In this document: positions 6,135 to 24,970 of the stretch, in pieces
Layout: the number at the start of each line of letters is the position of its first letter
How positions within the stretch are numbered: position 1 is the first letter of the stretch
Program-made: the position numbers and the translations under genes
Notes under the pieces: model-generated
The model's database searches: none
Told to the model about the DNA's origin: nothing
The model's input: only the letters and a program-made list of their open reading frames with translations
Source: an uncultured Lachnospiraceae bacterium
GTDB lineage: Bacteria > Bacillota > Clostridia > Lachnospirales > Lachnospiraceae
NCBI GenBank assembly: GCA_902779575.1
Contig: CACZBW010000004.1
Coordinates: 278,166 to 342,165, forward strand
Direction of reading: 5' to 3'
Length of the DNA: 64,000 nucleotides

Positions 6135-7292
6135 ATGAAAAAAATAGCTATTCTGGGAAGTACCGGTTCAATCGGAACGCAGACCCTGGAAGTGGTCAGG
6201 CGCAATCCGGACCTGAAGGTGACCGCCCTTGCCGCCGGCCGCAATATCCGCCGGCTGGAGGAACAGATCCGGGAGTTCTCGCCGGAATATGTCGCCGTAT
6301 GGGAAGAAAAGGATGCCCTGAGCCTGCGGGAGCTGGTGAAGGATACGGGGATCCGTATCGGCTATGGCATGGACGGACTGATCGAGGCTGCCGCCTATAA
6401 GGATGCGCAGATCACAGTGACGGCGATCGTCGGCATGATCGGGATCCGCCCGACCATCGAGGCGATTAAGGCCGGTAAGGATATCGCCCTGGCCAACAAG
6501 GAGACCCTGGTTACGGCGGGACATATTATCATGCCTCTTGCCAGAAAATGCGGCGTGAAGATCCTGCCGGTTGATTCGGAACATTCCGCGATCTTCCAGT
6601 CCCTGAACGGGGAGGAGGGCAGCAGAATCGAGAAGATTCTTCTCACCTGCTCCGGAGGCCCCTTCCGCGGTTACACGAAGCAGCAGCTTTCCAAAGTAAC
6701 CGTAGAGGACGCGCTGCGCCATCCCAACTGGAATATGGGCCGCAAGATCACTGTGGACTCTGCTTCCCTGGTAAATAAAGGTCTGGAGGTGATGGAAGCC
6801 GGATGGCTCTTCGGCGTTCCGGGCGACCGGATTGAAGTGGTCGTCCAGCCCCAGAGCATTATCCATTCTGCCGTGCAGTTTACGGACGGAGCCGTGATCG
6901 CGCAGCTGGGGACGCCCGATATGCGCCTGCCGATCCAGTACGCTCTCTTTTATCCGCAGCGCAGGGAAATGGATACGGAGCGGCTTAACCTGTTTCAAAT
7001 CGGCAGCCTGACATTTGAAAAGCCGGATACGGATACCTTCCGCGGACTGACCCTCGCAAGGCGGGCCATGGCGGAGGGGGGCACGATGCCGACAGTCTTC
7101 AACGCGGCCAATGAGATTGCCGTGGCGCATTTCCTTGCCCGCCGGATCGGCTTCCTGGATATTTACCGCCTGATCGAAGAATGCATGGACAGTCACCGGG
7201 TGACGGCGGATCCCGATGTGGACCAGATTCTGGACGCGGAAAAAGAAGCCGGTGAAAAGATTGCTTCCATGGAGGAAAAAAATCAGATTTGA
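6135..7292 (+). CDS. dxr: 1-deoxy-D-xylulose-5-phosphate reductoisomerase
   Basis: This 385-residue enzyme is the first committed step of the MEP isoprenoid pathway; it makes MEP from DXP with NADPH. Features include the nucleotide loop ILGSTGSIGTQTLEV at the start, LANKETLVTAG, the metal/substrate segment PVDSEHSAIFQSLNGE, and GGPFRGYTKQQL. The ATG at 6135 gives the conserved KKIAILGSTGSIG start and has GAGGA 5 bp upstream; the in-frame ATG at 6078 adds 19 atypical residues. The stop overlaps the rseP start by a few bases. Confidence 0.96.
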   Translation: MKKIAILGSTGSIGTQTLEVVRRNPDLKVTALAAGRNIRRLEEQIREFSPEYVAVWEEKDALSLRELVKDTGIRIGYGMDGLIEAAAYKDAQITVTAIVGMIGIRPTIEAIKAGKDIALANKETLVTAGHIIMPLARKCGVKILPVDSEHSAIFQSLNGEEGSRIEKILLTCSGGPFRGYTKQQLSKVTVEDALRHPNWNMGRKITVDSASLVNKGLEVMEAGWLFGVPGDRIEVVVQPQSIIHSAVQFTDGAVIAQLGTPDMRLPIQYALFYPQRREMDTERLNLFQIGSLTFEKPDTDTFRGLTLARRAMAEGGTMPTVFNAANEIAVAHFLARRIGFLDIYRLIEECMDSHRVTADPDVDQILDAEKEAGEKIASMEEKNQI

Positions 7293-8338
7293 GAATTATT
7301 ATTGCACTTCTAATATTCAGCGGAATTATATTATTTCATGAATTCGGGCATTTTCTGCTGGCGAGACTGAATGGCGTGTTTGTAATTGAGTTCTCTCTCG
7401 GGATGGGGCCGAGGCTTCTGAGCCATGTAAGCCGGAAAAGCGGGACAAGATATTCCCTGAAAATTCTGCCTTTCGGAGGTTCCTGCGCCATGCGGGGAGA
7501 GGATGACGGGGATATGTCGGAAGGGGCCTTCGGCAGGGCGAAGGTCTGGCAGCGGCTGCTGATCGTGGCGGCGGGGCCTTTCTTCAATTTTCTGCTTGCC
7601 TTCCTGGGCGCGGTGATTATCGTGACCGGCGCGGGATATGACGCCCCGTATGCGGAGTATCTGTCGGAAGGATATCCGGCGCAGGAAGCCGGGATGGAGC
7701 GGGGAGACCTGATCACTTCCGTCGGAGGGGAGAAGATCACCGTCTACAGGGACTTCTCCGGTTATATTTCTCTGCACCAGAAGGATTTTGCCGCCGGGAA
7801 ACCGGTGACGGTCAGCTGGATCCACGACGGAGAATCAAAGAGCGCAGAACTGACAGCCCGGCAGAGTGAGAGCGGAAGATATATCCTGGGTATTACCGGC
7901 GGAGTCCGGATCCCGGCGAAAAATCCTGCTCAGGTGCTGAGATACAGTCTTTATGAGGTGAAATACTGGATCAGTACGACCCTGAACAGTCTCAGGCTTC
8001 TGCTTACGGGACGCATCTCCGTTCAGAACGTATCAGGCCCGGTGGGCGTGGTGCAGATGATCGGCGATACCTATGAGGAGACGAAGAGCGAGGGAGGCTT
8101 CTACCTCTTCCTGAATATGATCAATCTTGTGATCCTGCTCTCCGCCAATCTGGGCGTCATGAACCTGCTTCCCTTCCCGGCCCTTGACGGGGGAAGGATC
8201 GTCCTACTTCTGCTGGAAGCGGTGCGGGGAAAGAAGCTTGGGGAAAATATCGAGGGATATATCAACCTGGCCGGCTTTGCCGTGCTGATGGTCCTGATGG
8301 TCCTGATTCTGATCAACGACACGCGGAAAATTCTGTGA
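7289..8338 (+). CDS. rseP: Site-2 protease RseP/RasP family (M50)
   Basis: This 349-residue intramembrane zinc protease cleaves membrane-bound regulatory proteins. The zinc motif HEFGH is at residues 17-21 in the first membrane helix. A PDZ-like domain with YPAQEAGMERGDLITSVGG spans about 115-200. The C-terminal metal/helix motif NLLPFPALDGGR is near 291-302. The start appears to be TTG at 7289, translationally coupled to dxr by overlap with its stop, with GGAGG 13 bp upstream. The next gene is not ispG, which often follows in Clostridia. Confidence 0.94.
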   Translation: MRIIIALLIFSGIILFHEFGHFLLARLNGVFVIEFSLGMGPRLLSHVSRKSGTRYSLKILPFGGSCAMRGEDDGDMSEGAFGRAKVWQRLLIVAAGPFFNFLLAFLGAVIIVTGAGYDAPYAEYLSEGYPAQEAGMERGDLITSVGGEKITVYRDFSGYISLHQKDFAAGKPVTVSWIHDGESKSAELTARQSESGRYILGITGGVRIPAKNPAQVLRYSLYEVKYWISTTLNSLRLLLTGRISVQNVSGPVGVVQMIGDTYEETKSEGGFYLFLNMINLVILLSANLGVMNLLPFPALDGGRIVLLLLEAVRGKKLGENIEGYINLAGFAVLMVLMVLILINDTRKIL

Positions 8339-8418
8339 CAGGCCGCTGCGGTTTACGGCCTGCGCGGAGGGGCCAAAGCGCAGCGATCTGCCGTTTCAGC
8401 GGCTGAAATGAGGTTTTT

Positions 8419-8901
8419 ATGACGGATTATGATCTTCTGACCGCCCAGGCGGAAGCGCTGCTGGAAAGCGAAAGCGGATATCTTCCCTTTCTTTCCAATC
8501 TTTCCGCGCTGATAAAGGATTCCATGGAAGATGTGAACTGGGCCGGTTTTTATCTGCTCAGGGGAGGCTTTCTTGTTGTCGGCCCCTTCCAGGGGCATCC
8601 TGCCTGCATCCGCATTGAGATCGGGAAAGGGGTGTGCGGCACTGCCGTAAAGGAGATGCGGAGCATTCTGGTGAAAGATGTACATGCTTTTCCCGGGCAT
8701 ATCGCCTGCGACGCCGCGTCCGCTTCGGAGATTGTGGTTCCGCTCCAAGACGCAGATGGAAAGATCCGGGGCGTTCTGGATATCGACAGTCCTTTAAAGG
8801 CCCGTTTTACGGAAACGGATCAGGAAGGCCTGGAGAAACTGTGCGGGCGGCTGAGCGGGAAAATCTGCTGGGAAGCGTCCGGGCCGGATCTCTTTCCCTG
8901 A
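8419..8901 (+). CDS. msrC: Free methionine-(R)-sulfoxide reductase (GAF domain)
   Basis: This 160-residue single GAF-domain protein is of the fRMsr (YebR/YtsP) type, which reduces free Met-R-sulfoxide with thioredoxin. All three cysteines of the well-studied enzymes are present: ACIRI (C63), GVCGTA (C73) and HIACDAAS (C97). It also has NWAGFYLL and VLDIDSPLKARF. Length matches. It starts with GAAATGAGGTTTTTATG and sits alone between rseP and a secreted protein. It is probably part of oxidative-damage repair. Confidence 0.92.
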   Translation: MTDYDLLTAQAEALLESESGYLPFLSNLSALIKDSMEDVNWAGFYLLRGGFLVVGPFQGHPACIRIEIGKGVCGTAVKEMRSILVKDVHAFPGHIACDAASASEIVVPLQDADGKIRGVLDIDSPLKARFTETDQEGLEKLCGRLSGKICWEASGPDLFP

Positions 8902-8967
8902 GAGAAGGCTTTCGTCCGGGACTATGTGATTATCGCCTGCCGGTTATTCATAGCTCGTTTTTCATTG

Positions 8968-9067
8968 CAGGAGCTTCATAACCGCAGTCAAACAGGAGTT
9001 TCATGGCAGCAGTCAAACAGGAGTTTCATGGCAGTGGTCATACAGGAGTTTCATGACCGCAGTCATG
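8968..9067 (+). repeat. Four tandem 25-bp units, each with an SD-like site
   Basis: Units start at 8968, 8993, 9018 and 9043, with consensus CAGGAGTTTCATGGCAGCAG followed by TCAAA. Each unit has AGGAG; units 2-4 also have an ATG 4 bp further on (9003, 9028, 9053). Because 25 is not a multiple of three, these ATGs fall in all three frames. The ATG at 9053 is in frame with the next gene. Confidence 0.85.
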
Positions 9068-9142
9068 GAGGAATGCGCAGAACAATCCGCTTTTCTTTCA
9101 CAGGAGCGGACAGGGATAAAGTCAGACAAAGGAGGGAAATAC

Positions 9143-9793
9143 ATGAAAAAAACAGGTACAAACCGCTTTACAAAAAGAGCGTTCTTCAAAAAGATGACTG
9201 CGGCGGCGCTCTGCGCAGTCTGCCTGACGGCAGCTGTTCCGGCTGTCTGTCAGGCGGGAGGAGCCCGGCAGGATGTCTCCGCAGCTTACAGGAAGGAGTC
9301 GGCGCTTCCTGCCTTCAAATACACGGGGAATAAGAAAGAACTCGCGGTGATCTGCGAGTACCTTCTGGAAAAGAAGGCACCCCTCTATAAGGATGCGGAC
9401 GTCTTCATCCCTGCACCGGTGATTTTCGGAATACGCGAAAAAGGCGGAGAGACGCTTGTGTTCGGCAATTTCTGGATCTTCGGCTACGATCTTTCCGGCG
9501 CTACGCTGATCTGCGAAAGCGGCGGCGCGATGCCTGCCTGCTTCCATCTGGCGAAGGACGGGGACAGCTATAAGGTCACAAAAGTCGAACAGGCGGAAGA
9601 CGGCGCGGGATTTACGGACAGCATTGAGAAGATGACAAAGGGGTATAAGAAGATCCGGAAAAAAATGCTTGTCTCCAATGAGAAAAAGGAAAAGCAGGTT
9701 CGCAGAAACTGGATCAGAAATTATGTTCAGGCGAACAATCTTGCAGTCACTGCCTATAAGGACTACGGATGGGATCCGGTATCTGTTCGATAA
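9143..9793 (+). CDS. Secreted protein of unknown function
   Basis: This 216-residue protein has a clear signal peptide: a basic start KKTGTNRFTKRAFFKK, a hydrophobic core TAAALCAVCLTAAVPAV, and likely cleavage after CQA. The mature part contains a compact domain with KELAVICEYLLEKKAP and FGNFWIFGYDLSGATLICES, then a basic helix ending in a conserved-looking YGWDPVSV. I do not recognise the family. The start at 9143 is preferred because AAAGGAGGG precedes it; an in-frame ATG at 9053 lies in the 25-bp repeat and would put 30 residues before the signal peptide. Confidence 0.75.
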   Translation: MKKTGTNRFTKRAFFKKMTAAALCAVCLTAAVPAVCQAGGARQDVSAAYRKESALPAFKYTGNKKELAVICEYLLEKKAPLYKDADVFIPAPVIFGIREKGGETLVFGNFWIFGYDLSGATLICESGGAMPACFHLAKDGDSYKVTKVEQAEDGAGFTDSIEKMTKGYKKIRKKMLVSNEKKEKQVRRNWIRNYVQANNLAVTAYKDYGWDPVSVR

Positions 9794-9908
9794 TGCCGGG
9801 AAACGCTGCTTAACGAAGCGGATCAGGGAAAACGGCAGCATCAGGATTTTCCTGAAAATTGCCGCCATGCCGCTTTTCTGGCAGATGGGGAAAGAATAAA
9901 GTGAGAAT

Positions 9909-9943
9909 GGTCCGGTGCGCAGAGCCGGGCCATCTCTGTTTTC
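9909..9943 (+). terminator. Probable terminator after the secreted protein
   Basis: GGTCCGG (9909-9915) pairs with CCGGGCC (9925-9931) through one G-T wobble and is followed by ATCTCTGTTTT. It is of moderate strength. From here to recA (10381) there is no convincing gene; the gap holds two promoters and an SOS box. Confidence 0.5.
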
Positions 9944-10033
9944 AACAAAAGACCAGACTCGCTTTACCTGCCTGACGATCGGATCAGCAGACCAAATGTC
10001 ACACATTAGTATAGTGCATATGCAAATATAAAG

Positions 10034-10061
10034 TTGACATCCGGAAAAGTATGCCTATAAT
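10034..10061 (+). promoter_or_regulatory. Strong near-consensus promoter with no clear gene
   Basis: TTGACA (10034-10039), a 16-bp spacer, TATAAT (10056-10061). It points toward recA but lies about 320 bp before its start codon and upstream of the LexA-controlled promoter. It could be a second, constitutive recA promoter or drive a small RNA. Confidence 0.65.
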
Positions 10062-10236
10062 GAAATCATCACATCTTTGTTCCGGCAGTTCTGCCAGTTT
10101 CTTCATTTTGTGTTCTTTCTGTCCGGCTGCAGCACAGCGGCCTGTCTGTCTTCTGATCTGTTCACAGTCCCGCCCCGCAGGGCTGCTGTGATTCAAGGCT
10201 CTCTGCACAGGATCCGACATTTTCTCATTTTTCCGC

Positions 10237-10265
10237 TTGACAGTGGGGTCCGTTTCGCTTACTAT
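10237..10265 (+). promoter_or_regulatory. recA promoter
   Basis: TTGACA (10237-10242), a 17-bp spacer, TACTAT (10260-10265). The SOS box begins 6 bp after the -10, so bound LexA would sit over the start of transcription. Confidence 0.8.
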
Positions 10266-10271
10266 AAGAGT

Positions 10272-10285
10272 CGAACATTCGTTCG
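10272..10285 (+). promoter_or_regulatory. LexA (SOS) box of recA
   Basis: CGAACATTCGTTCG is a perfect match to the Gram-positive LexA/DinR operator CGAAC-N4-GTTCG. Its position immediately downstream of the -10 predicts repression of recA until DNA damage. Confidence 0.9.
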
Positions 10286-10380
10286 CATAACGCGAAGGGA
10301 CATACAGAAGAGCAGATCCGTAAAAAGAAGAATTCGGAACAGGACTGGCCGGATCAGATTTTCCGGAGGAGGTAGAAGAT

Positions 10381-11529
10381 ATGGCAAGAAAAACAGCTGG
10401 TGAAGCAGTACAGGCGCCTGAAAAGCAGAATTCAGACAAGCTGCGCGCGCTGGATGCGGCACTGAGCCAGATTGAGAAGCAGTACGGCAAGGGCGCGGTC
10501 ATGCGTCTTGGCGAGAACAGTACGAATATGAACGTGGAGACGGTTCCCACCGGATCTCTGAGCCTTGACATCGCGCTCGGACAGGGCGGCATTCCCAAGG
10601 GACGCATCGTGGAGATCTACGGACCGGAATCTTCCGGTAAGACGACGGTTGCCCTTCATATGGTGGCTGAGGTTCAGAAAAGAGGCGGAATCGCGGGCTT
10701 CATCGATGCCGAGCATGCACTGGATCCGGTCTATGCGAAGAACATCGGAGTAGATATTGACAATCTGTATATTTCGCAGCCGGATAACGGTGAACAGGCG
10801 CTGGAGATCTGCGAAACCATGGTCCGCTCGGGCGCGGTGGATATCATCATCGTGGATTCCGTGGCAGCCCTGGTTCCGAAGGCGGAGATCGACGGCGATA
10901 TGGGCGATTCCCATGTAGGGCTTCAGGCAAGGCTCATGAGCCAGGCGCTCAGAAAACTGACCGGCGTGATCAGCAAGACCAACTGCAGCGTTATTTTCAT
11001 CAACCAGCTCCGTGAAAAGGTCGGCGTCATGTTCGGGAATCCGGAGACAACGACGGGCGGCCGCGCTCTGAAGTTCTATTCGTCGGTCCGTCTCGACGTC
11101 AGGAGGATTGAATCGATCCGCCAGCAGGGAGAAGTGATCGGGAACCGCACCAGGATCAAAGTGGTCAAGAACAAGATCGCTCCGCCGTTTAAGGAGGCCG
11201 AGTTTGATATCATGTTCGGGAAAGGCATCTCCAGAGAAGGAGACGTCCTGGATCTGGCTGCCAATCTCGGCGTTATCGTCAAGAGCGGTGCCTGGTACGC
11301 GTATGAAGGCAGCAAGATCGGGCAGGGGCGTGAGAACGCCAAGCTGTATCTTGCGGAGAATCCCGATGTCATGAACGAAGTGATCCACAAGGTCAGAGTT
11401 CAGTACGGACTGGATCCGGACGATACAGCGGCTGCTGAGGAGACGTCAGCCCCGGACGTGCCGGAGAGCGGCTTTGCGGCAGGGGCGGCTGACATGGAGA
11501 CGGCAGCTTCGCCGGATAAGGATATCTGA
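10381..11529 (+). CDS. recA: Recombinase RecA
   Basis: This 382-residue DNA-dependent ATPase performs strand exchange in recombination and triggers LexA self-cleavage. The Walker A loop GPESSGKTT is at residues 81-89. It also has the RecA signature [16 protein letters not shown], the Walker B-like [14 protein letters not shown], and DNA-binding loop L2 near [20 protein letters not shown]. The acidic, Ala/Ser-rich tail is normal. The ribosome site GGAGGAGGT precedes the ATG. It is regulated by the SOS box at 10272-10285 and cotranscribed with recX. Confidence 0.98.
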
Positions 11530-11537
11530 AGACGGGT

Positions 11538-12215
11538 GTGAGAGTAGAAGAACTTAAAAGGATAACGGACCGGAAGTACAGGATTCTGCTGGAGGATGGA
11601 AGCTCCTTCGTTCTCTATGCCGGGGAACTCAGAAGATTTCATATTGAGGAAGGCGGCATGATCGGGGAGGATATCCTCTCCGGGATTCTGGAGGGAGTCC
11701 TGCTGAAGCGGGCGAAACTTCGCTGTATGAACCTGCTGAAGACGATGGACCGCACAGTATCACAGCTTGCGGCTGTACTGAAAAGGGACGGCTATCCGGA
11801 TGAGATTATACAGGGCGCGCTGGATTACGTGGCATCCTGCCATTATACCGACGACCGGCGCTATGCGGAGAACTATGTCCGCCTGCAGGCCGGAAAGAAG
11901 AGCCTGAAGCAGATCCGCTATGATCTTCTGGGAAAGGGGATTGCCCCCGAACTTGCGGAGCAGGTCCTTGACGAGGCTCCCTCCCTCTGGGAAGGCAGCC
12001 CGCCTTTATCAGAGGATGCAGACGGGGAGTACAGTCCGGACCTGTCCGGAGAAAGCCCGGACCTGTCCGCGATACGGATTCTTATGAGAAAGCGGCGTTT
12101 TGATCCGGAATCATCGGATTCTGACCAGCTGCGGCGCTTTATACAGTATCTGATGAGAAAGGGCTTTTCCCTTACGGATATCCGGAAGGCGCTTGGCAGG
12201 GAATTATATAATTAG
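11538..12215 (+). CDS. recX: Regulatory protein RecX
   Basis: This 225-residue all-helical protein binds and modulates RecA filaments. It has the tandem three-helix repeats of RecX: LLKTMDRTVSQLAAVLKRDG, then YTDDRRYAENYVRLQAGKKS with IRYDLLGKGIAPELAEQVL, then IQYLMRKGFSLTDIRKAL. A low-complexity insert with a doubled SPDLSGESPDLS lies between repeats. The start is GTG at 11538, only 8 bp after the recA stop with no strong ribosome site, so coupling to recA translation is likely. Confidence 0.93.
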   Translation: MRVEELKRITDRKYRILLEDGSSFVLYAGELRRFHIEEGGMIGEDILSGILEGVLLKRAKLRCMNLLKTMDRTVSQLAAVLKRDGYPDEIIQGALDYVASCHYTDDRRYAENYVRLQAGKKSLKQIRYDLLGKGIAPELAEQVLDEAPSLWEGSPPLSEDADGEYSPDLSGESPDLSAIRILMRKRRFDPESSDSDQLRRFIQYLMRKGFSLTDIRKALGRELYN

Positions 12216-12217
12216 AA

Positions 12218-12263
12218 AACGGCGGCAGAGAGGATCTTGTTTCCCTCTGCCGTTTCTGTTTTC
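12218..12263 (+). terminator. Terminator of recA-recX
   Basis: CGGCAGAG (12223-12230) pairs with CTCTGCCG (12245-12252), followed by TTTCTGTTTT. The 3' arm is also the start of the 30-bp repeat array that follows. Confidence 0.65.
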
Positions 12264-12366
12264 GGGTCTCCCATAACGGCTGTTTCTGTTCTCAGCTCCC
12301 CCATGCCGGCTGTTTCTTTTTCGGCCTTCTCCAAGCCGGCTGTCTCTGTTAACGGCTCTCTGCATA
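12247..12366 (+). repeat. Four degenerate 30-bp tandem units
   Basis: Units with exact 30-bp spacing start near 12247, 12277, 12307 and 12337, each beginning CGGCTGTTTCTGTT or a close variant. A shifted fifth copy begins at 12373. Translation of the + strand would repeat PAVSV every ten residues. Both strands stay open through the array, but no start or ribosome site makes it a credible gene. Confidence 0.75.
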
Positions 12367-12445
12367 GCGGACCGGCTCTGTTTATGCTTCTCCATAAAGC
12401 AGGTCCGCACAGCAGCAGGTCCGTACAGCATGCGGCAGTTCGTCA

Positions 12446-12474
12446 TTGACAGAAACGGGAAAAATCAGTAGAAT
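12446..12474 (+). promoter_or_regulatory. rny promoter
   Basis: TTGACA (12446-12451), a 17-bp spacer, TAGAAT (12469-12474), about 50 bp before the GTG start of rny. Confidence 0.75.
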
Positions 12475-12527
12475 AGTTTTGCTGCAGTTTTTTGCAGCAA
12501 AGAATTACATATCTAGGAGGTGCTCCT

Positions 12528-14084
12528 GTGTCGATTCCAGTGATTATTCTCATCACTGTTGCAATCACGCTGGCAGTCGCGATCCCTGTTACAGCCCGTA
12601 TTTCTGTCAATCGTAAGGTTCAGGAAGATAAAGCCAAGATCGGCAGCGCAGAAGAAAAGGCCAGACAGATCATAGACGATGCACTGAAGTTGTCAGAGAC
12701 CAAGAAGCGGGAAGCGCTTCTGGAGGCGAAGGAAGAGTCCCTTAAGATCAAGAATGAGTCTGAGAGGGAAGCGAGAGATCGCCGTCTGGAAGTCCAGCGC
12801 CTTGAAAAAAGAGTCTTGTCGAAGGAAGAAGCCGCCGACAAGAAGGCTGAGTCTCTGGAACGCAGGGAAGCCGGCATTGCAGCAAAAGAAGAAGAGCTGA
12901 GAAAGAGACAGTCCGCGGCAGACAAACTGCTTGGACAGCGGCAGCAGGAATTGGAACGAATCTCCGGATTGACCTCCGAACAGGCAAAGGAATATCTTTT
13001 AAAATCTGTTGAAGACGAAGTAAAGACAGATGCTGCGAAGCTCTACAAAGAGCTGGATAGCCAGGCCAGAGAAGATGCGGCGAAAAAAGCCAAAGAATAT
13101 GTGGTCACGGCAATTCAGCGCTGCGCGGCAGACCATGTCGCGGAGGCAGCGATTTCAGTCGTTCAGCTGCCCAGTGATGAGATGAAAGGCCGTATTATCG
13201 GCCGTGAGGGACGCAATATCCGGGCTATTGAGACCATGACCGGAGTGGACCTTATAATTGATGATACCCCGGAAGCTGTAGTTTTATCCAGCTTTGATCC
13301 GATTCGAAGAGAAGTGGCCAGGGTTGCCCTGGAAAAGCTTGTGGTTGACGGCCGGATCCATCCCGCGAGGATCGAGGAGACGGTTGAAAAGGCAAAGAAG
13401 GAAGTCGAGAACGAGATCCGTGAAGCAGGTGAGGAAGCCTGTCTGGAGGTCGGCGTACACGGCATCCATCCGGAACTTGTCAGACTTCTCGGCCGCATGA
13501 AGTTCCGTACCAGTTACGGACAGAATGCGCTGAAGCATTCCATAGAGGTGGCTCACCTGTCTGGTCTTCTGGCTTCAGAAGTGGGCGTGGACGTGCGTAT
13601 TGCGAAACGCGCAGGCCTGCTTCATGATATCGGCAAGTCGATCGACCATGAGGTTGAGGGAACCCATGTTCAGATCGGAGCGGATCTGTGCCGGAAGTAT
13701 AAGGAATCGAATGTCGTTATTAACGCTGTGGAGTCTCACCATGGCGACGTAGAGCCAGAGTCGCTGATCGCCTGCATCGTTCAGGCTGCCGATACGATTT
13801 CGGCGGCGCGTCCGGGCGCGCGCAGGGAGACCCTGGAGACATATACCAACAGACTGAAACAGTTAGAAGATATTACAAACTCCTTCAAGGGAGTTGAGAA
13901 GTCATTTGCCATTCAGGCAGGACGGGAGATTCGTGTCATGGTAATTCCTGAGCAGATCAGCGATGCGGATATGACATTCCTCGCAAGGGATATCGCAAAG
14001 CAGATCGAGTCTGAACTGGAATATCCGGGTCAGGTGAAAGTCAGTCTCATTCGTGAGTCAAGAGTTGTAGACTATGCGAAGTAA
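12528..14084 (+). CDS. rny: Ribonuclease Y
   Basis: This 518-residue membrane-anchored endoribonuclease starts RNA decay in Firmicutes. Order: N-terminal membrane helix ([16 protein letters not shown]), a long charged coiled coil to about residue 200, a KH domain ([20 protein letters not shown]), and an HD domain with [17 protein letters not shown]. The start is GTG at 12528, 6 bp after AGGAGGT; an upstream ATG at 12492 has no ribosome site. Length is typical. It is a single-gene unit with its own promoter and a strong terminator. Confidence 0.96.
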
Positions 14085-18398: not shown

Positions 18399-19310
18399 AT
18401 GGCGAAGTATGTATTCAAGCGAGTGATCCTTGCCATCGTCACGATCTTCATCGTATGCGCGATTACCTTTTTTACGATGAACGCGATCCCGGGCGGACCA
18501 TTCAATGGTGAGAAGGCGACTTCCCCGCAGGTTAGGGAGACGCTGGAGAAGCGTTTTAATCTTGACAAACCGGTCGGGGAGCAGTTTGTGATTTATATGA
18601 AGAATCTTCTGCACGGAGATTTCGGCATCTCCGCGAAGACCGGACGCGATATCGGAGTGACGATCTCTTCCAAGTTCGCTGTATCCGCGAAACTTGGCAT
18701 CTTTGCCGTCATCGTTGCCCTGATTCTGGGCGTATTTTTCGGAAGCATCGCGGCTCTGATGAGGAACCGGTGGCCGGACCGCCTGATCATTTTCATGTCG
18801 ACCCTGTTTACATCTCTGCCCAGTTTCGTTCTGGCGACCTTTCTCCTGGTCGTCTTCTCGGTCAGGCTCGGCTGGGTGAAAGCCTGGAGCCCGACCCACC
18901 AGAGCCTGGTCCTGCCGGTTCTGTCCCTTGCGGCTTATCCGGCGGCTTATATTACCCGTCTGACCAAGACGAGCATGCTGGACGTCCTGGGGCAGGATTA
19001 CGTAAGGACTGCCCGGGCAAAGGGCGTCGCCCAGGTAAAGGTGCTTTTTGTTCATACGCTGCGCAATTCCCTGATCCCGGTTGTAACTTATGTGGGGCCG
19101 ATGATCGCTTCTGTCCTGACTGGATCGCTTGTTGTTGAGAACATCTTTACAATCGGCGGTCTCGGGGCGGAATTCGTCACCAGCATCACCAACCGTGATT
19201 ATCCGATGATTATGGGCGTTACGATCTTCCTGGCGGTATTCATGGTAACCATGAATCTGATCACGGACATTGTCTACAAGCTGATTGATCCGCGGATCAA
19301 TCTGGACTGA
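18399..19310 (+). CDS. oppB: Oligopeptide ABC transporter permease OppB
   Basis: This 303-residue inner-membrane subunit has six helices. The family start YVFKRVILAIVTIFIVCAIT is followed by FFTMNAIPGGPF, and the EAA loop with ARAKGVAQVKVLFVHTLRNS contacts the ATPase. It pairs with OppC to form the peptide channel. GGAGGAGAAG precedes the ATG. First gene of oppBCDF. Confidence 0.94.
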   Translation: MAKYVFKRVILAIVTIFIVCAITFFTMNAIPGGPFNGEKATSPQVRETLEKRFNLDKPVGEQFVIYMKNLLHGDFGISAKTGRDIGVTISSKFAVSAKLGIFAVIVALILGVFFGSIAALMRNRWPDRLIIFMSTLFTSLPSFVLATFLLVVFSVRLGWVKAWSPTHQSLVLPVLSLAAYPAAYITRLTKTSMLDVLGQDYVRTARAKGVAQVKVLFVHTLRNSLIPVVTYVGPMIASVLTGSLVVENIFTIGGLGAEFVTSITNRDYPMIMGVTIFLAVFMVTMNLITDIVYKLIDPRINLD

Positions 19311-19323
19311 GAAGGAGGAAAAG

Positions 19324-20406
19324 ATGGCAAACGAAGCATATGATGTGAATAAAATGCCAGAGAAAAACCCGCTTTCCCTCCAGATCGATCTGAAAAAGTT
19401 CGAAAAAGCAACGGAAGACGAGAAGAAACAGGCGGATATCATGAGCGAGTCCACCTCCTTCTTCCGGGATGGAATGAAGCGGCTGCGCAGGAATCCTCTG
19501 GCTATGATGAGCATTGTGGTTCTGGTGATCATTATCGCCATGATCATTGTGGTGCCTTCCGTGGTGCCCTACAGCTATTCCGACATTATCACCGTGAACG
19601 GCAAACGCGACAAGACCGCGACCAATATGAGCCCGTTTACCTATTCAAAGCTGGAGCAGCAGTACATCGACGAAGGCGGGAAGGTTTTCCCCCATATCAT
19701 GGGAACGGATGAGCTTGGCAGAGATTATTTTGTCAGAGTCATCTACGGAACCAGGATTTCTCTTGTTGTCGGCGTATTTGCTTCCATGATCGTGCTGGTC
19801 ATAGGCGTTCTGTACGGGTCGGTTGCCGGCTATTTCGGCGGCAAGGTTGACCTGATCATGATGCGGATCGTCGACGTGATCTATTCGCTGCCCGACCTGT
19901 TAATGATTATCCTTCTCTCGGTCGTCCTGAACGAGGTCATCAATGTGTCCGGCAACAGCCTGCTGGGACGGCTCGGGACGAATATGATTTCTCTGTTCCT
20001 GGTCTTCGGACTGCTGTACTGGGTCGGAATGGCGAGGCTTGTCCGCGGCCAGATCCTGACCATCAAGCAGAACGAGTATGTGCTCGCGGCGAGGGTTTCA
20101 GGGGCCGGCAGCGGCAGGATCATCCGCAGGCATATCCTTCCCAACTGCATCAGCGTCATTATTATTTCGGCGGCGCTGCAGATTCCGTCCGCCATTTTCA
20201 CGGAATCCTTCCTGAGCTTCATCAGTCTGGGCGTAAAGGCTCCCATGCCGTCCCTGGGTTCGCTGGCCAACGCGGCGCGTTCGGGAGTGACGACATATAC
20301 CTATAAGCTGATCTTCCCGGCTGTCATGATCGCCCTGATCACACTGGCCTTCAACCTGCTGGGAGACGGCCTGCGCGACGCATTTGACCCGAAACTGAGG
20401 AGGTAA
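19324..20406 (+). CDS. oppC: Oligopeptide ABC transporter permease OppC
   Basis: This 360-residue permease has a cytoplasmic N-terminal extension of about 45 residues, then the OppC N-domain (FFRDGMKRLRRNPLAMMSIV) and the periplasmic-type loop HIMGTDELGRDYFVRVIYGT. The EAA loop is AARVSGAGSGRIIRRHILPN. The ATG at 19324 follows AAGGAGGAAAAG and lies 13 bp after oppB. It forms the second half of the channel. Confidence 0.94.
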   Translation: MANEAYDVNKMPEKNPLSLQIDLKKFEKATEDEKKQADIMSESTSFFRDGMKRLRRNPLAMMSIVVLVIIIAMIIVVPSVVPYSYSDIITVNGKRDKTATNMSPFTYSKLEQQYIDEGGKVFPHIMGTDELGRDYFVRVIYGTRISLVVGVFASMIVLVIGVLYGSVAGYFGGKVDLIMMRIVDVIYSLPDLLMIILLSVVLNEVINVSGNSLLGRLGTNMISLFLVFGLLYWVGMARLVRGQILTIKQNEYVLAARVSGAGSGRIIRRHILPNCISVIIISAALQIPSAIFTESFLSFISLGVKAPMPSLGSLANAARSGVTTYTYKLIFPAVMIALITLAFNLLGDGLRDAFDPKLRR

Positions 20407-20412
20407 AACGCT

Positions 20413-21417
20413 ATGGCAGAAAACATCTTATCTGTACAGGACCTCCACACCTCGTTTCATACGGACAACGGGGAAGTTATGGCGGTCAACGGAGTGAACT
20501 TTAATCTTGCCGCCGGAAAGATCCTGGGGATTGTCGGGGAATCCGGTTCGGGCAAGTCGGTAACCGCGTATTCGATCATGCAGATCCTGGAGAAAAACGG
20601 GGCCATCAAGTCCGGAAAGATCCTTTACAAGGGGGAGGACATCACAAAGTGGCCGGAACAGAAGATGCGGGATTTCCGCGGCAAATGCTGCTCGATCATT
20701 TTCCAGGACCCGATGACCAGCCTGAACCCGGTCTTCACGGTCGGCTTCCAGCTGGAGGAGGCGATCCGGCTGCATACGGAGCGGCGCGGGAAAGAAGCGG
20801 AACGCCGGGCAATCGAAATGCTTGAGCTGGTCGGGGTAAATGAACCCGAAAAGCGCATTCGTCAGTATCCCTATGAGCTGTCAGGAGGCATGCGTCAGCG
20901 CGTCATGATCGCGATGGCCCTTGCCTGCGAGCCGGATATACTGATCGCGGATGAACCCACGACCGCGCTTGACGTTACGATCCAGGCACAGATTCTGGAG
21001 CTGATGCAGAGCCTTCAGAAGAAGCTCGGCATGGCGATTATCATGGTCACGCACGATCTCGGCGTGATCGCGCAGATGGCGGACGAGATCATCGTCATGT
21101 ACGGCGGACGCGTCTGCGAGAGAGGAACTGCGGAGGATATCTTCTATCATCCGTGCCATGAATATACAAAGGGCCTGCTCCGCTCGATCCCGAATGTAGA
21201 CCGGATCGGGCAGAAGCTCGAGCCGATTTCGGGAACACCCATCAACCTTCTGAATATGCCCAAAGGCTGTGCCTTCTGCCCCAGGTGCGACGCCGCCATG
21301 AAGATCTGCCTGGAAGAGCAGCCGCCTGAAGTCAGAACCATGGACGGCCATCTGGTATCCTGCTGGGCGCATATCAGGGAAGAAATCGACGCCGGCCTGA
21401 TTACGGTTCAGGGTTGA
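20413..21417 (+). CDS. oppD: Oligopeptide ABC transporter ATPase OppD
   Basis: This 334-residue ATPase has Walker A GESGSGKS, the signature ELSGGMRQR, and Walker [13 protein letters not shown]. It ends in the oligopeptide C-terminal domain with the cysteine pattern [14 protein letters not shown] that is typical of OppD/F. It starts 6 bp after oppC and powers uptake as a heterodimer with OppF. Confidence 0.95.
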
Positions 21418-21434
21418 GACGGGAGGACACAAAT

Positions 21435-22415
21435 ATGGATAAAAATTATGTGCCGGACAAGGAGAACCTTGTCGAGGTAAATGATCTGAAAATGTACTTC
21501 CCGGTCAAGACAGGACTGTTTACCAGAACGCCGCTCAAGGCGGTGGACGGGGTCTCCTTCGCAATTAAGCCCGGGGAAACACTTGGCCTGGTCGGGGAAT
21601 CCGGCTGCGGGAAGACTACGGTAGGGCGCGCTGTTATCCGCCTCTACACGCCGACGGACGGTGATCTGTTTTTTGACGGAAAGAGAATAGACAGCCAGTC
21701 AATCGGCAGCATGCGGAAAGACATGCAGATGGTCTTTCAGGATCCCTACTCATCCCTGAATCCCCGCATGACGGTCGAGGACATCATCGGGGAACCCCTG
21801 GATGTCCACAAGCTCTATGCAAATGCAAAGGAGAGAAGAGAGAAGGTCCTGCACCTGATGGAACTGGTCGGACTGAATGCCGAACACGCTACCCGGTATG
21901 TGCATGAATTCTCCGGCGGACAGAGGCAGAGAATCGGAATCGCCAGAGCTCTTGCGACAAATCCGAGATTTATCATCTGCGACGAGGCTGTTTCCGCCCT
22001 GGACGTATCCATTCAGGCGCAGGTCATCAATATGTTCGAGGAACTGCAGGAAAAACTGGGCGTTGCCTATCTGTTCATTGCCCATGACCTGCTGGTGGTC
22101 CATCACATCTCGGACAGGATCGCGGTCATGTATCTGGGCAGGATGGTGGAGACCGCGGACGCGGATGAACTGAATAATAATCCGATGCATCCGTATACCC
22201 AGTCCCTGCTTTCCGCGGTCCCCTATCCGGATCCGGAGATCGCCAAGTCCAGGAAGCGCATTATCCTGGAAGGCGATGTTCCGAGTCCCCTGCATATGCC
22301 CAGCGGCTGTGCATTCCGCACCCGCTGCAAATACGCGACAGAACAGTGCGCGCAGGAGTGTCCGAAGCTGACAGACCGGGGAAACGGGCATCTTGTCGCA
22401 TGCTGGAATAAATAA
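21435..22415 (+). CDS. oppF: Oligopeptide ABC transporter ATPase OppF
   Basis: This 326-residue partner ATPase has GESGCGKTT (Walker A), [15 protein letters not shown] (signature) and [12 protein letters not shown] (Walker B; Ala replaces the usual Pro-Thr, as often in OppF). The C-terminal cysteine domain is [14 protein letters not shown]. The ATG at 21435 has GGGAGGA upstream and is preferred to an earlier TTG at the oppD stop. Confidence 0.95.
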
Positions 22416-22425
22416 AACAGAGATA

Positions 22426-22454
22426 TTGCACAAATTCACTGATCTGATTATAAT
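22426..22454 (+). promoter_or_regulatory. Separate promoter for the binding protein
   Basis: TTGCAC, a 17-bp spacer, TATAAT (22449-22454). It lies between oppF and the binding-protein gene, allowing that protein to be made in excess of the channel. Confidence 0.75.
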
Positions 22455-22504
22455 GGATAACAGTGGTTTTTAGTCACTATTTAACTTTTAGGGAGGATTG
22501 GATT

Positions 22505-24970
22505 ATGAAGAGGCGCTTAGTGACACTGGTTGCTGTTGTCTCTCTCGCTGCCATGAGCCTTGCGGGCTGCAGCAGCAAGAAGGCAAAAGAAACTGAGCCG
22601 GCAACGACTGCCCAGGTTCAGGAGACCAAGGCTGAGGAGAAGGAGACAACCGCTCCTGAGACAACTGCTCCTGAGACGGAAGCGGCGGCTGTGGAAGAAG
22701 CGGCAGCGGCATTGCAGACCGAGGCAGAGGCGGCAGCCGAAGCAGTGAAGGCAGTAGAGACTGAGGCAGAGGCGGCAGTCGCGGAAGCAGCGGCGGCAGT
22801 TGAGACCGAGGCAGAGGCAGCTGCAGACGCAGTGAAGGAAGCAGCAGCGGCGGCAGAGACCGAGGCGGAAGCGGCAGTCGAAGCAGCGGCAGCGGCAGTT
22901 GAAACCGAAGCGGAAGCGGCAGCAGACGCAGTGAAGGAAGCGGTTGCGGCAGCAGAGACCGAGGCGGAAGCGGCAGCAGACGCAGTGAAGGAAGCGGTTG
23001 CGGCAGCAGAGACCGAAGCGGAAGCGGCAGCAGAGACCGAGGCGGAAGCGGCAGTTGCGGAAGCAGCAGCGGCAGTTGAGACCGAAGCGGAAGCAGCAGC
23101 CGACGCGCTGAAGGAAGCGGTTGCGGAAGCCGAGACCGAGCTGGAAGAAGCAGTCGGTGAAGTGGCAGTGGCAGTTGAGACCGAGGCTGAGGAAGCAGTC
23201 GAGGCAGTGAAGGATGTGATCGCGGCCCTTGCCGGCGAGACCGAAGCGGAAGCAGTTGATGCCGAGACCGAAGCAGAGGCTCTTGATGCCGAGACCGAAG
23301 CGGAAGCAGCTGACGCCGAGACAGAGGCAGAGGCGGCTCCGAGCGAACTCTCCAGCGCGGCAGCTCCGGAATGGGACAGCTACAATGAGAAGATCGCGAA
23401 GATCTACACTGAGACAGATCCGGCCAAGCGTGAGGCTCTGATGCATGAAGCGGAAGACCAGCTTATGGATACCTGGGCTGTCGTCCCGATCTACTACTAC
23501 AACGATATCTATATGCAGACCGCTGATATCGAGAACATTTACTCCAACGTATTCGGATTCAAGTATTTCGCGTATGCGACTGCTCCGGACAACGAGATGA
23601 ACGTCAACCTGGCCAGCGAACCGGACCATCTTGATCCTGCTCTGAATTCTTCTGTTGACGGCGCATGCCTGGCAATCCTCGGATTCTCCGGCCTGTACGC
23701 CTATGACGCGGAAGGACAGCTGGTTCCGGAACTTGCCGAGAAAGAACCGGAAGTTTCCGAAGACGGCCTGACCTATGTCTTCACCCTCAGAGACGGTCTG
23801 AAGTGGTCTGACGGCGAAGATCTGGATGCCAATGACATCGTCTACAGCTGGAACCGTTTCTATGATCCGAACACCGCTGCAGATTACAGCTACCTGATTG
23901 ACTCCAGCAATATCGGTGTGAAGGAAGACGGCACTCTGGATATCGAGGCTTCCGAAGACGGAAAGACCTTTACCGTGCATCTGACCAATCCGTGCGCATA
24001 TTTCCTTGATCTGTGCGCATTCCCGGCATTCTATCCGGTACCGGAGCAGGCAGTCACCGAGGCGGATCCGGACGGCTCCAATCCGGGCGCATGGTCTCTT
24101 GAAGCAGGCTTTGTGACCTCCGGTCCGTTCACCTGCACCGAGTGGAAGCACAACGAGTCCATGGTCTATGAGAAGAACCCGAACTACTGGAACGCGGACG
24201 CGGTTTCTCTTGAGAAGATCAACTTCATGCTGAGCGCGGACGACACCGCGATCTTCAACGCGTACAAGGATGGTTCCCTGCAGTTCATCGATACGGTACC
24301 GACCGATGAGATCGCGAACGTGAAGGATCAGGATGACTTCTACATCGTCCCGAACCTTGGAACCTACTATGTCGGATTCAACGTAAATTCCGAGCTCTTT
24401 GACGGTATGACCCCGCAGCAGGCTGCTGACATGAGACATGCGCTCTGCCTGCTGATCGACCGCCAGTACATCGTTGACACAGTCGGACAGACTGGACAGG
24501 AACTGGCAAGCACTTTCATCCCGACCGGCATGGCTGACGGAAACGGCGGCGAGTTCCGCGCGAACGACGACGATTACACCTATCCGGATGAGGAAGCAGT
24601 CGGTTACTACGATGCGTCCGCTACCGGAGCGGATATGGTTGACGAAGCAGTCGAGCTTCTGAAGGGCGCCGGTTTCGAGTTCAATGACGACAATACTCTG
24701 TCCGATGAAACTCCGATCCATCTGACCTATCTGACCAACGACAGTGACGCTCATGTCAAGATTGCAGAGTCCATGCAGCAAGATTTCGCCCTCATCGGCG
24801 TGACCATGGATATCGAGAGCAAGGATTGGCAGGTTGTCCTGAACGAGAGAAAAGAAGGACAGTTTGACGTCGCCCGCGAAGGCTGGCTGGCAGATTACAA
24901 CGACCCGATCAACATGCTTGAGATGTGGCTGACCAACTCCGGCAACAACGATATGCAGTTCGGAAGATAA
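22505..24970 (+). CDS. oppA: Circularly permuted oligopeptide-binding lipoprotein (OppA-like)
   Basis: This 821-residue lipoprotein has the lipobox LAGC with Cys22. Residues about 30-277 are a low-complexity Ala/Glu/Thr tail. Residues about 286-359 (PEWDSYNEKIAKIYTETDP, LMHEAEDQLMDTWAVVPIYY, FGFKYFAYAT) match what is normally the C-terminal end of cluster-C solute-binding proteins. Only then does the usual mature N-terminus begin (MNVNLASEPDHLDPALNSS, GLKWSDG), running to the end at WLTNSGNNDMQFGR. In ordinary relatives QFGR leads straight into the displaced segment, so the order is permuted. All pieces of one complete binding protein are present once. It is the only binding protein beside oppBCDF and has its own promoter and terminator. 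GGGAGGA precedes the ATG. Confidence 0.85.
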   Translation: MKRRLVTLVAVVSLAAMSLAGCSSKKAKETEPATTAQVQETKAEEKETTAPETTAPETEAAAVEEAAAALQTEAEAAAEAVKAVETEAEAAVAEAAAAVETEAEAAADAVKEAAAAAETEAEAAVEAAAAAVETEAEAAADAVKEAVAAAETEAEAAADAVKEAVAAAETEAEAAAETEAEAAVAEAAAAVETEAEAAADALKEAVAEAETELEEAVGEVAVAVETEAEEAVEAVKDVIAALAGETEAEAVDAETEAEALDAETEAEAADAETEAEAAPSELSSAAAPEWDSYNEKIAKIYTETDPAKREALMHEAEDQLMDTWAVVPIYYYNDIYMQTADIENIYSNVFGFKYFAYATAPDNEMNVNLASEPDHLDPALNSSVDGACLAILGFSGLYAYDAEGQLVPELAEKEPEVSEDGLTYVFTLRDGLKWSDGEDLDANDIVYSWNRFYDPNTAADYSYLIDSSNIGVKEDGTLDIEASEDGKTFTVHLTNPCAYFLDLCAFPAFYPVPEQAVTEADPDGSNPGAWSLEAGFVTSGPFTCTEWKHNESMVYEKNPNYWNADAVSLEKINFMLSADDTAIFNAYKDGSLQFIDTVPTDEIANVKDQDDFYIVPNLGTYYVGFNVNSELFDGMTPQQAADMRHALCLLIDRQYIVDTVGQTGQELASTFIPTGMADGNGGEFRANDDDYTYPDEEAVGYYDASATGADMVDEAVELLKGAGFEFNDDNTLSDETPIHLTYLTNDSDAHVKIAESMQQDFALIGVTMDIESKDWQVVLNERKEGQFDVAREGWLADYNDPINMLEMWLTNSGNNDMQFGR
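22590..23335 (+). repeat. In-frame 54-bp repeat coding an 18-residue helical tail
   Basis: A stretch inside the binding-protein gene is built of degenerate repeats. The clearest are two 54-bp units at 22922-22975 and 22976-23029 that differ at a single base by eye. They encode an 18-residue unit of the type ADAVKEAVAAAETEAEAA. Others drift around them, with shorter AETEAEA spacers near the end. Eighteen residues equal five turns of alpha-helix, so charged faces would line up along a straight rod. Confidence 0.85.

Follow-up and report, generated by a model that had tools for sequence, protein, structure and literature searches.

Discussions of natural circular permutation in proteins usually treat it as rare, ancient and a matter of single events, and the general model for its origin is permutation by duplication; to our knowledge, none of the cases described under that model includes a return to the original order. 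Among the binding proteins of ABC transporters, the closest precedent for the gene presented here is TpMglB-2 (Tp0684) of Treponema pallidum, a naturally permuted sugar-binding protein designated 'Type Ic / Cluster Bc' (PMC4990184). That work mentions homologues in Gram-positive bacteria, describes one topology, notes poor sequence conservation and a large insertion in the permuted part, and proposes that topology and membrane tethering may be linked (PMC4990184). A literature search that covered few subscription papers returned TpMglB-2, of a different fold class, as the only natural permuted binding protein and found no permuted OppA, in agreement with a preliminary description of the present DNA, which knew of no natural permutation described in this family; a term search of a paper on permutation detection (PMC11757225) found no binding-protein terms.

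Here we present an oppA gene from a stretch of 64,000 nucleotides (the window) of an uncultured Lachnospiraceae bacterium, which very probably encodes a working, circularly permuted OppA that is conserved and forms part of a wider pattern of recutting. The gene is the last of an oppB-C-D-F-A operon on the forward (+) strand that spans 18399-24970. The permease gene oppB (18399..19310) was read from its ORF, with the same gene order in relatives, and is followed by the permease gene oppC (19324..20406, start chosen at the ATG of MANEAYD), the ATPase gene oppD (20413..21417) and the ATPase gene oppF (21435..22415, start chosen at the ATG of MDKNYVP), for all three of which the ORF agrees with the operons of relatives. 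As first described, the operon holds no second binding protein at 18399-24970. The oppA gene itself (22505..24970; ATG at 22505, stop at 24968-24970) encodes 821 residues and was delimited from the ORF list, the translation, and profile and structure-sequence alignments.

The translation begins with a lipoprotein signal peptide (22505..22570) ending in LAGC, which by the lipobox rule we take to place the lipidated cysteine at Cys22. An Ala/Glu-rich linker of 265 residues (residues 23-287, 22571..23365) that contains tandem repeats comes next, followed by the displaced C-terminal segment, PEWDSYNEK...FGFKYFAYAT (residues 288-359, 23366..23581), which we refer to as the tail. The junction APDNEM (23582..23599), located from the translation and the alignment of relatives, connects the former C-terminus to the former mature N-terminus, such that the fusion reads ...KYFAYAT/APDNEM/NVNLASEPDHLDP..., and the rest of the fold, from the N-lobe to its penultimate part (residues 366-821, 23600..24967), runs to the new C-terminus SGNNDMQFGR. 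In the mature protein the former C-terminal segment of about 72 residues thus comes first behind the linker, a junction of about six residues joins it to the former N-terminus, and the new termini fall in the old loop between SGNND.QF and W..Y.

The exchanged order is seen most directly against solved structures. In a phmmer search of the PDB the best sequence match for the core of the window OppA was Bacillus subtilis OppA (8are), to which residues 288-821 align in two stretches: query positions 77-530 with chain residues 21-450 (200 bits), and query positions 8-69, the tail, with chain residues 459-520 (21.6 bits, i-E 7e-4). DppE (8ay0) gives the same exchange of two blocks (tail i-E 3e-5). 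The tail also matches the C-terminus of L027 from genome G019 (60% identity over 70 residues, E 3e-27), the closest canonical-order homologue found in a search of 61 genomes and about 58% identical to the window OppA; in L027 this stretch follows the rest of the fold. The similarity is far beyond chance, which was rejected as its source. On a hidden Markov model of canonical-order proteins the fold is covered exactly once, positions 475-543 first and then 45-473, with the cut, which we call A, at 474. These alignments bear out the preliminary description, in which the C-terminal tail precedes the N-lobe and a fold present once ends at QFGR, and which had suggested alignment with the OppA and DppA families as a check; its boundaries for the displaced segment, about 286-359, hold at residue 359, and the start moves by about two residues to 288. 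As expected of a circular permutant, there is a single whole fold with two blocks exchanged, the old termini fused and the new termini together, and the alignments support the reading of the protein as a natural circular permutation of an OppA-type binding protein.

Family assignment is consistent with this topology. The only Pfam family matched by the window OppA is SBP_bac_5 (PF00496), over residues 406-815 (E 6.7e-82, 276 bits against a cut-off of 32.4), and the tail alone matched no family in Pfam. The protein is thus a member of SBP_bac_5 by homology and not by topology, given that the tail stands before the N-lobe. With the cluster C proteins OppA and DppE (PF00496; 8are, 8ay0, 1b05) it shares a sequence family across the whole fold, the oppBCDF partners and the ligand-site motif, whereas it differs from canonical OppA in that the fold is rotated with the tail first, the termini fall between 8are residues 450 and 459, and the N-terminal tether would sit elsewhere. 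The PDB matches shown are to peptide-, nickel-, heme- and oligosaccharide-type proteins, aligned to the SBP_bac_5 part, and so place the protein outside Type I/Cluster B.

The A-type permutation is a conserved and widespread form in Lachnospiraceae and their relatives. When the order of four pieces was read for each ORF, the permuted order was present in 18 of the 61 genomes, the window genome included, and, within the genus of the window genome, in 16 of 19. Contig ends cut three of the 18 copies, and one (L023 in G005) is interrupted by a TGA, its last 51 residues matching separately; G007, G011 and G015, which are 70-77% complete, gave no permuted match in this search. Among named genomes all of the best 80 of 429 relatives were permuted (81 ORFs and one decayed upstream copy), a sample biased by the use of a permuted query, which favours permuted relatives. 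The permuted order occurs in the isolates Eisenbergiella tayi DSM 26961, E. porci, Blautia caecimuris DSM 29492 and Porcincola intestinalis, in the complete genome AP025576.1 and in the single-contig genome G226. The comparison of related genomes, a check already proposed in the preliminary description, thus shows that the permutation is no isolated case: it is widespread in this family and its relatives, and represents one of four cut sites. None of the seven other binding-protein relatives elsewhere in the window genome shows the permuted order, two of them (L006 and L007) aligning only partially. Interrupted copies were seen in two further places: in the single-contig genome G312 a permuted oppA (L282, 6016-7848) is broken by one in-frame TAG, where the genome-search match counts two, and the permuted match in G957 (L209) holds a TGA.

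Two readings would deprive the order of biological meaning or of its expected function. An assembly or annotation artefact could have joined fragments from a tandem pair of oppA genes; in its favour, the window genome is a draft of 75 contigs and tandem oppA copies are known in a few relatives (L113, L119, L187). We give this practically no credence: the identical order recurs across independent assemblies, in isolates, in the complete AP025576.1 and in single-contig G226, which excludes the tandem-gene misassembly named early on as the finding that would overturn the permutation; two other cut types (B and D) occur in single-contig G1293, G1013 and G776; and the codons of the tail are under purifying selection, like those of the body. 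For the window gene and L044 the dN/dS is 0.074 in the tail and 0.075 in the body, and four more pairs gave 0.07-0.24 for the tail (eight pairs were computed, of which two had no tail change and one had saturated dS). The same selection on tail and body led us to reject a pseudogene reading of the window oppA. It is also improbable, if less so than an artefact, that the permuted protein has ceased to be a peptide importer subunit, through decay or through a new role such as that of a sensor. In favour of such a loss are the few interrupted copies (G005, G312) and the frequency of a recognisable lipobox, found by a simple pattern in 72 of 112 A-type rows as compared with 42 of 44 canonical, 6 of 8 B, 3 of 3 C and 5 of 12 D rows, counts that include duplicate genes and truncated ORFs and are not independent; against it stand the dN/dS of about 0.07 in the closest pair, the retained oppBCDF operon and the ligand-site motif GWLADYNDP, which is kept in the window OppA together with the residue aligned to Asp419 of Salmonella OppA (1b05 chain numbering). 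That residue, Asp797 (24893..24895), is invariant in 14 of 14 permuted proteins, and Asp419 is the residue that we take to bind the alpha-amino group of the peptide.

We therefore favour an importer subunit, and the operon partners, the GWLADYNDP motif and purifying selection together suggest that the window protein is an ordinary oligopeptide-binding protein. The conservation profiles of permuted and canonical proteins correlate equally in the tail and the body (Spearman 0.47 in each), with 12 slid-register controls ranging from -0.19 to 0.44, the highest of which, at register -4, comes near 0.47; this conservation suggests that the tail docks at the canonical C-terminal position. Peptide would then be captured between the two lobes and handed to OppBC/OppDF as by ordinary OppA, and the main physical change would be the tether site, with the anchor and linker carried by the part that bears the new termini and not by the original N-terminal domain. 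Several A-type proteins (L012-L018, L020, L021, L067, L083, L085, L092, L097, L116 and L235) have a signal peptide without the lipobox Cys; judged from their N-termini, such proteins may be released or anchored otherwise. The linker varies as well. A similar long linker, cut by a contig start, is found in the nearest relative, L044, whose core is 96% identical to that of the window protein, and L111 and L115 also have long linkers; most other relatives have short ones. The repeats within the gene, once offered as the setting for the permutation, lose that role with most permuted relatives having just a short linker. Another locus of the window genome, L009, matches the linker at 60%.

Permutation of this fold takes place at more than one position. 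A distant genome, G049, carries two tandem opp operons whose binding proteins are both permuted and cut elsewhere than in the window, and of 295 genomes searched around it two others proved to share this cut; the search also led to a third type. The fused tail/N-lobe junction, common to every permutant, was aligned from three types as a detector and run on two partly overlapping sets, 398 genomes from the phylum and 391 from the class; full-span junction matches without a stop were found in at least 10 of the 398 and at least 10 of the 391, the window's own genome being in both. A profile built from 35 canonical-order proteins confirmed every one of these junction matches; G957 was left out on account of its TGA. 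Four cut sites emerged: A, the window type, at profile position ~474 (between 8are 450 and 459); B at ~311 (between 6npo 279 and 309), in L040 twice, L190, L191, L205, L238, L240 and L262; C at ~155-160 (between 8are 129 and 138), in L184, L192 and L193; and D at ~385-390 (between 8are 364 and 367), in L208, L210, L212-L216, L218, L236, L237, L243 and L244. Each type covers the fold once, with gaps or overlaps at the cut of at most about 12 profile positions, and the B, C and D examples that were scanned (L040, L205, L184 and L244) also match SBP_bac_5. The opp genes share the locus with the binding protein in 21 of 21 examined cases (B, C, D and four further A types), on the oppB or the oppF side, and in L289 and L290 the binding protein lies on the opposite strand. 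In L203 of G226 (6822-12722) the permuted gene stands before oppB and not after oppF, so that the operon order has changed too.

For phylogenies, each protein was placed on the profile columns whatever the order of its blocks, giving 104 rows (58 canonical, 25 A, 8 B, 3 C and 10 D). A quick tree of 103 of these rows requires 12 changes among the five states, and a 75-row tree, which leaves out 29 rows with the longest branches among them, requires 11. One-clade AU tests on the latter reject B (p 2e-39) and D (p 6e-8), and a single origin of C is compatible with the data (p 0.53). In a careful 43-row OppA tree of the A lineage, nine canonical-order proteins are nested among the 25 of permuted order; the tree rejects one A clade (p 2e-4), and its starred branches force at least three changes. 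The carriers of A, B and D are thus not single clades. Eight of the nine nested canonical genes belong to the same operon, their OppBCDF sharing 63-80% identity with those of the window, and the ninth, L132, has opp neighbours just 30-52% identical. An OppBCDF tree (46 loci drawn from the 94 that carry all four genes, and three outgroups; 1293 columns) nests the same eight canonical genomes in two places, as a starred cluster of six and as a pair that shares a starred clade with six permuted loci, and rejects both one A clade (p 7e-56) and one canonical clade (p 1e-7). Within one genus the same operon has different orders, canonical in G277 and permuted in G1345. The orthologous oppBCDF-A operon has therefore undergone at least three in-place switches of order. 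Homologous replacement of oppA alone by an outside canonical gene was considered and rejected given the same nested clusters in the OppA and OppBCDF trees; because the canonical clusters agree and are nested in the permuted lineage in both, a change in place is simpler.

The three switches are most simply one gain and two reversions, by which the canonical order would probably have been restored at least twice in the oppBCDF-A lineage. A lesser possibility, although a serious one, is that the nested canonical genes are not revertants, that the canonical order persisted and that the same loop was cut independently many times. On the OppBCDF tree that history needs eight gains, as against three changes with reversal, and a gain-only model with the root fixed as canonical has a log-likelihood of -21.5, as against -14.4 for equal rates with an even root prior, so that reversal is better by 7 log-likelihood units; the two-state model gives P 0.99 that the lineage ancestor was permuted, and in both trees canonical rows are nested within starred clades. 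Permuted loci are over-sampled, most having been drawn by permuted queries, and this speaks for parallel gains. The joints bear on both histories. In the nested canonical genes the C-tail joint is 9-10 residues longer than in other canonical relatives (for example QFGKDPSNTAAPDW..Y as compared with QWSNAEY), and several of these long joints end in AAPDW, as do many permuted N-termini, which would be expected had a tandem permuted pair been fused back. L205, the B-type sister of the A lineage, also has a long C-tail joint, so that in the nested canonical genes the long loop may be ancestral and not a scar of reversal. The loop at the A site is already expanded in L205, whose C-tail joint is intact, and such a site would be permissive for cutting. 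The three canonical clusters moreover have similar C-tail loops, DPSNTAAPDW (L131), DTSNSSAPSW (L125) and DSTSSAPDW (L128), which fits descent from a canonical ancestor. One possibility is that the long loop was there first and eased cutting; the other is that L205 is a re-rotated product, and it may represent a second rotation of an already rotated gene. Taken together, we regard reversal as about twice as probable as parallel gain. A more general proposition, for which we see an even balance, is that the OppA fold behaves as a rotatable ring whose termini have moved again and again among a few permissive loops (four found) by tandem duplication and trimming, reversibly and, in the Lachnospiraceae oppBCDF-A operon, with at least two returns of a permuted ancestor to the canonical order, the QFGK...AAPDW loop being the scar.

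TpMglB-2 is alike in being a natural circular permutation of an ABC binding protein. It has the Type I/Cluster B sugar fold, whereas the OppA proteins here belong to Cluster C, stand in peptide operons and are cut at four sites; unlike TpMglB-2, they retain clear sequence similarity across the permuted parts and include close canonical and permuted orthologues in one operon (PMC4990184). Natural circular permutation itself is known; for four cut sites with in-place switching in one family we found no description. A single widespread transporter family thus has several cut sites, with loops reused in separate lineages and either order in the same operon, and with such natural pairs one can test directly by what route permutation proceeds, whether it is reversible and how it affects fitness. 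They also have a bearing on the influence that the anchored end of a binding protein exerts when it docks to the permease. A practical warning follows for order-based profile searches, in which a permuted OppA looks incomplete or split in two; the matches that Pfam and NCBIfam give for the permuted proteins are partial or in two pieces.

The most likely route to the permuted gene would be a tandem duplication of oppA within the operon, then fusion, then trimming. Under the permutation-by-duplication model, tandem copies, fusion and loss at both ends would yield the products seen in OppA, which depart from it in that no fused intermediate was found. The duplication and trimming proposed in the preliminary description accordingly keep their plausibility through the tandem copies in L113, L119 and L187, and lack the fused stage. 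Long ORFs examined in G438, G382, G049 and G549 included no fused double-length binding protein, being separate tandem genes or, in G549, a kinase-binding-protein fusion. A second tail beside permuted or nested canonical genes was absent in 108 of 110 loci, and the two loci that have one both carry tandem permuted copies. In L113 (3929-7602) and L119 (5899-8223) tandem permuted oppA genes stand behind one opp operon, the upstream copy in L119 being decayed. L187 (2932-9768) has four tandem canonical-order oppA-like genes separated by gaps of a few to ~50 bases, and the starts of genes 2-4 resemble signal peptides of their own. At L189 (1211-4390, - strand) an ORF of 1060 residues begins with a region resembling a Ser/Thr protein kinase, behind which come a hydrophobic stretch and a domain similar to OppA; with the kinase-like region recognised by eye, its product is possibly a peptide-sensing receptor kinase.
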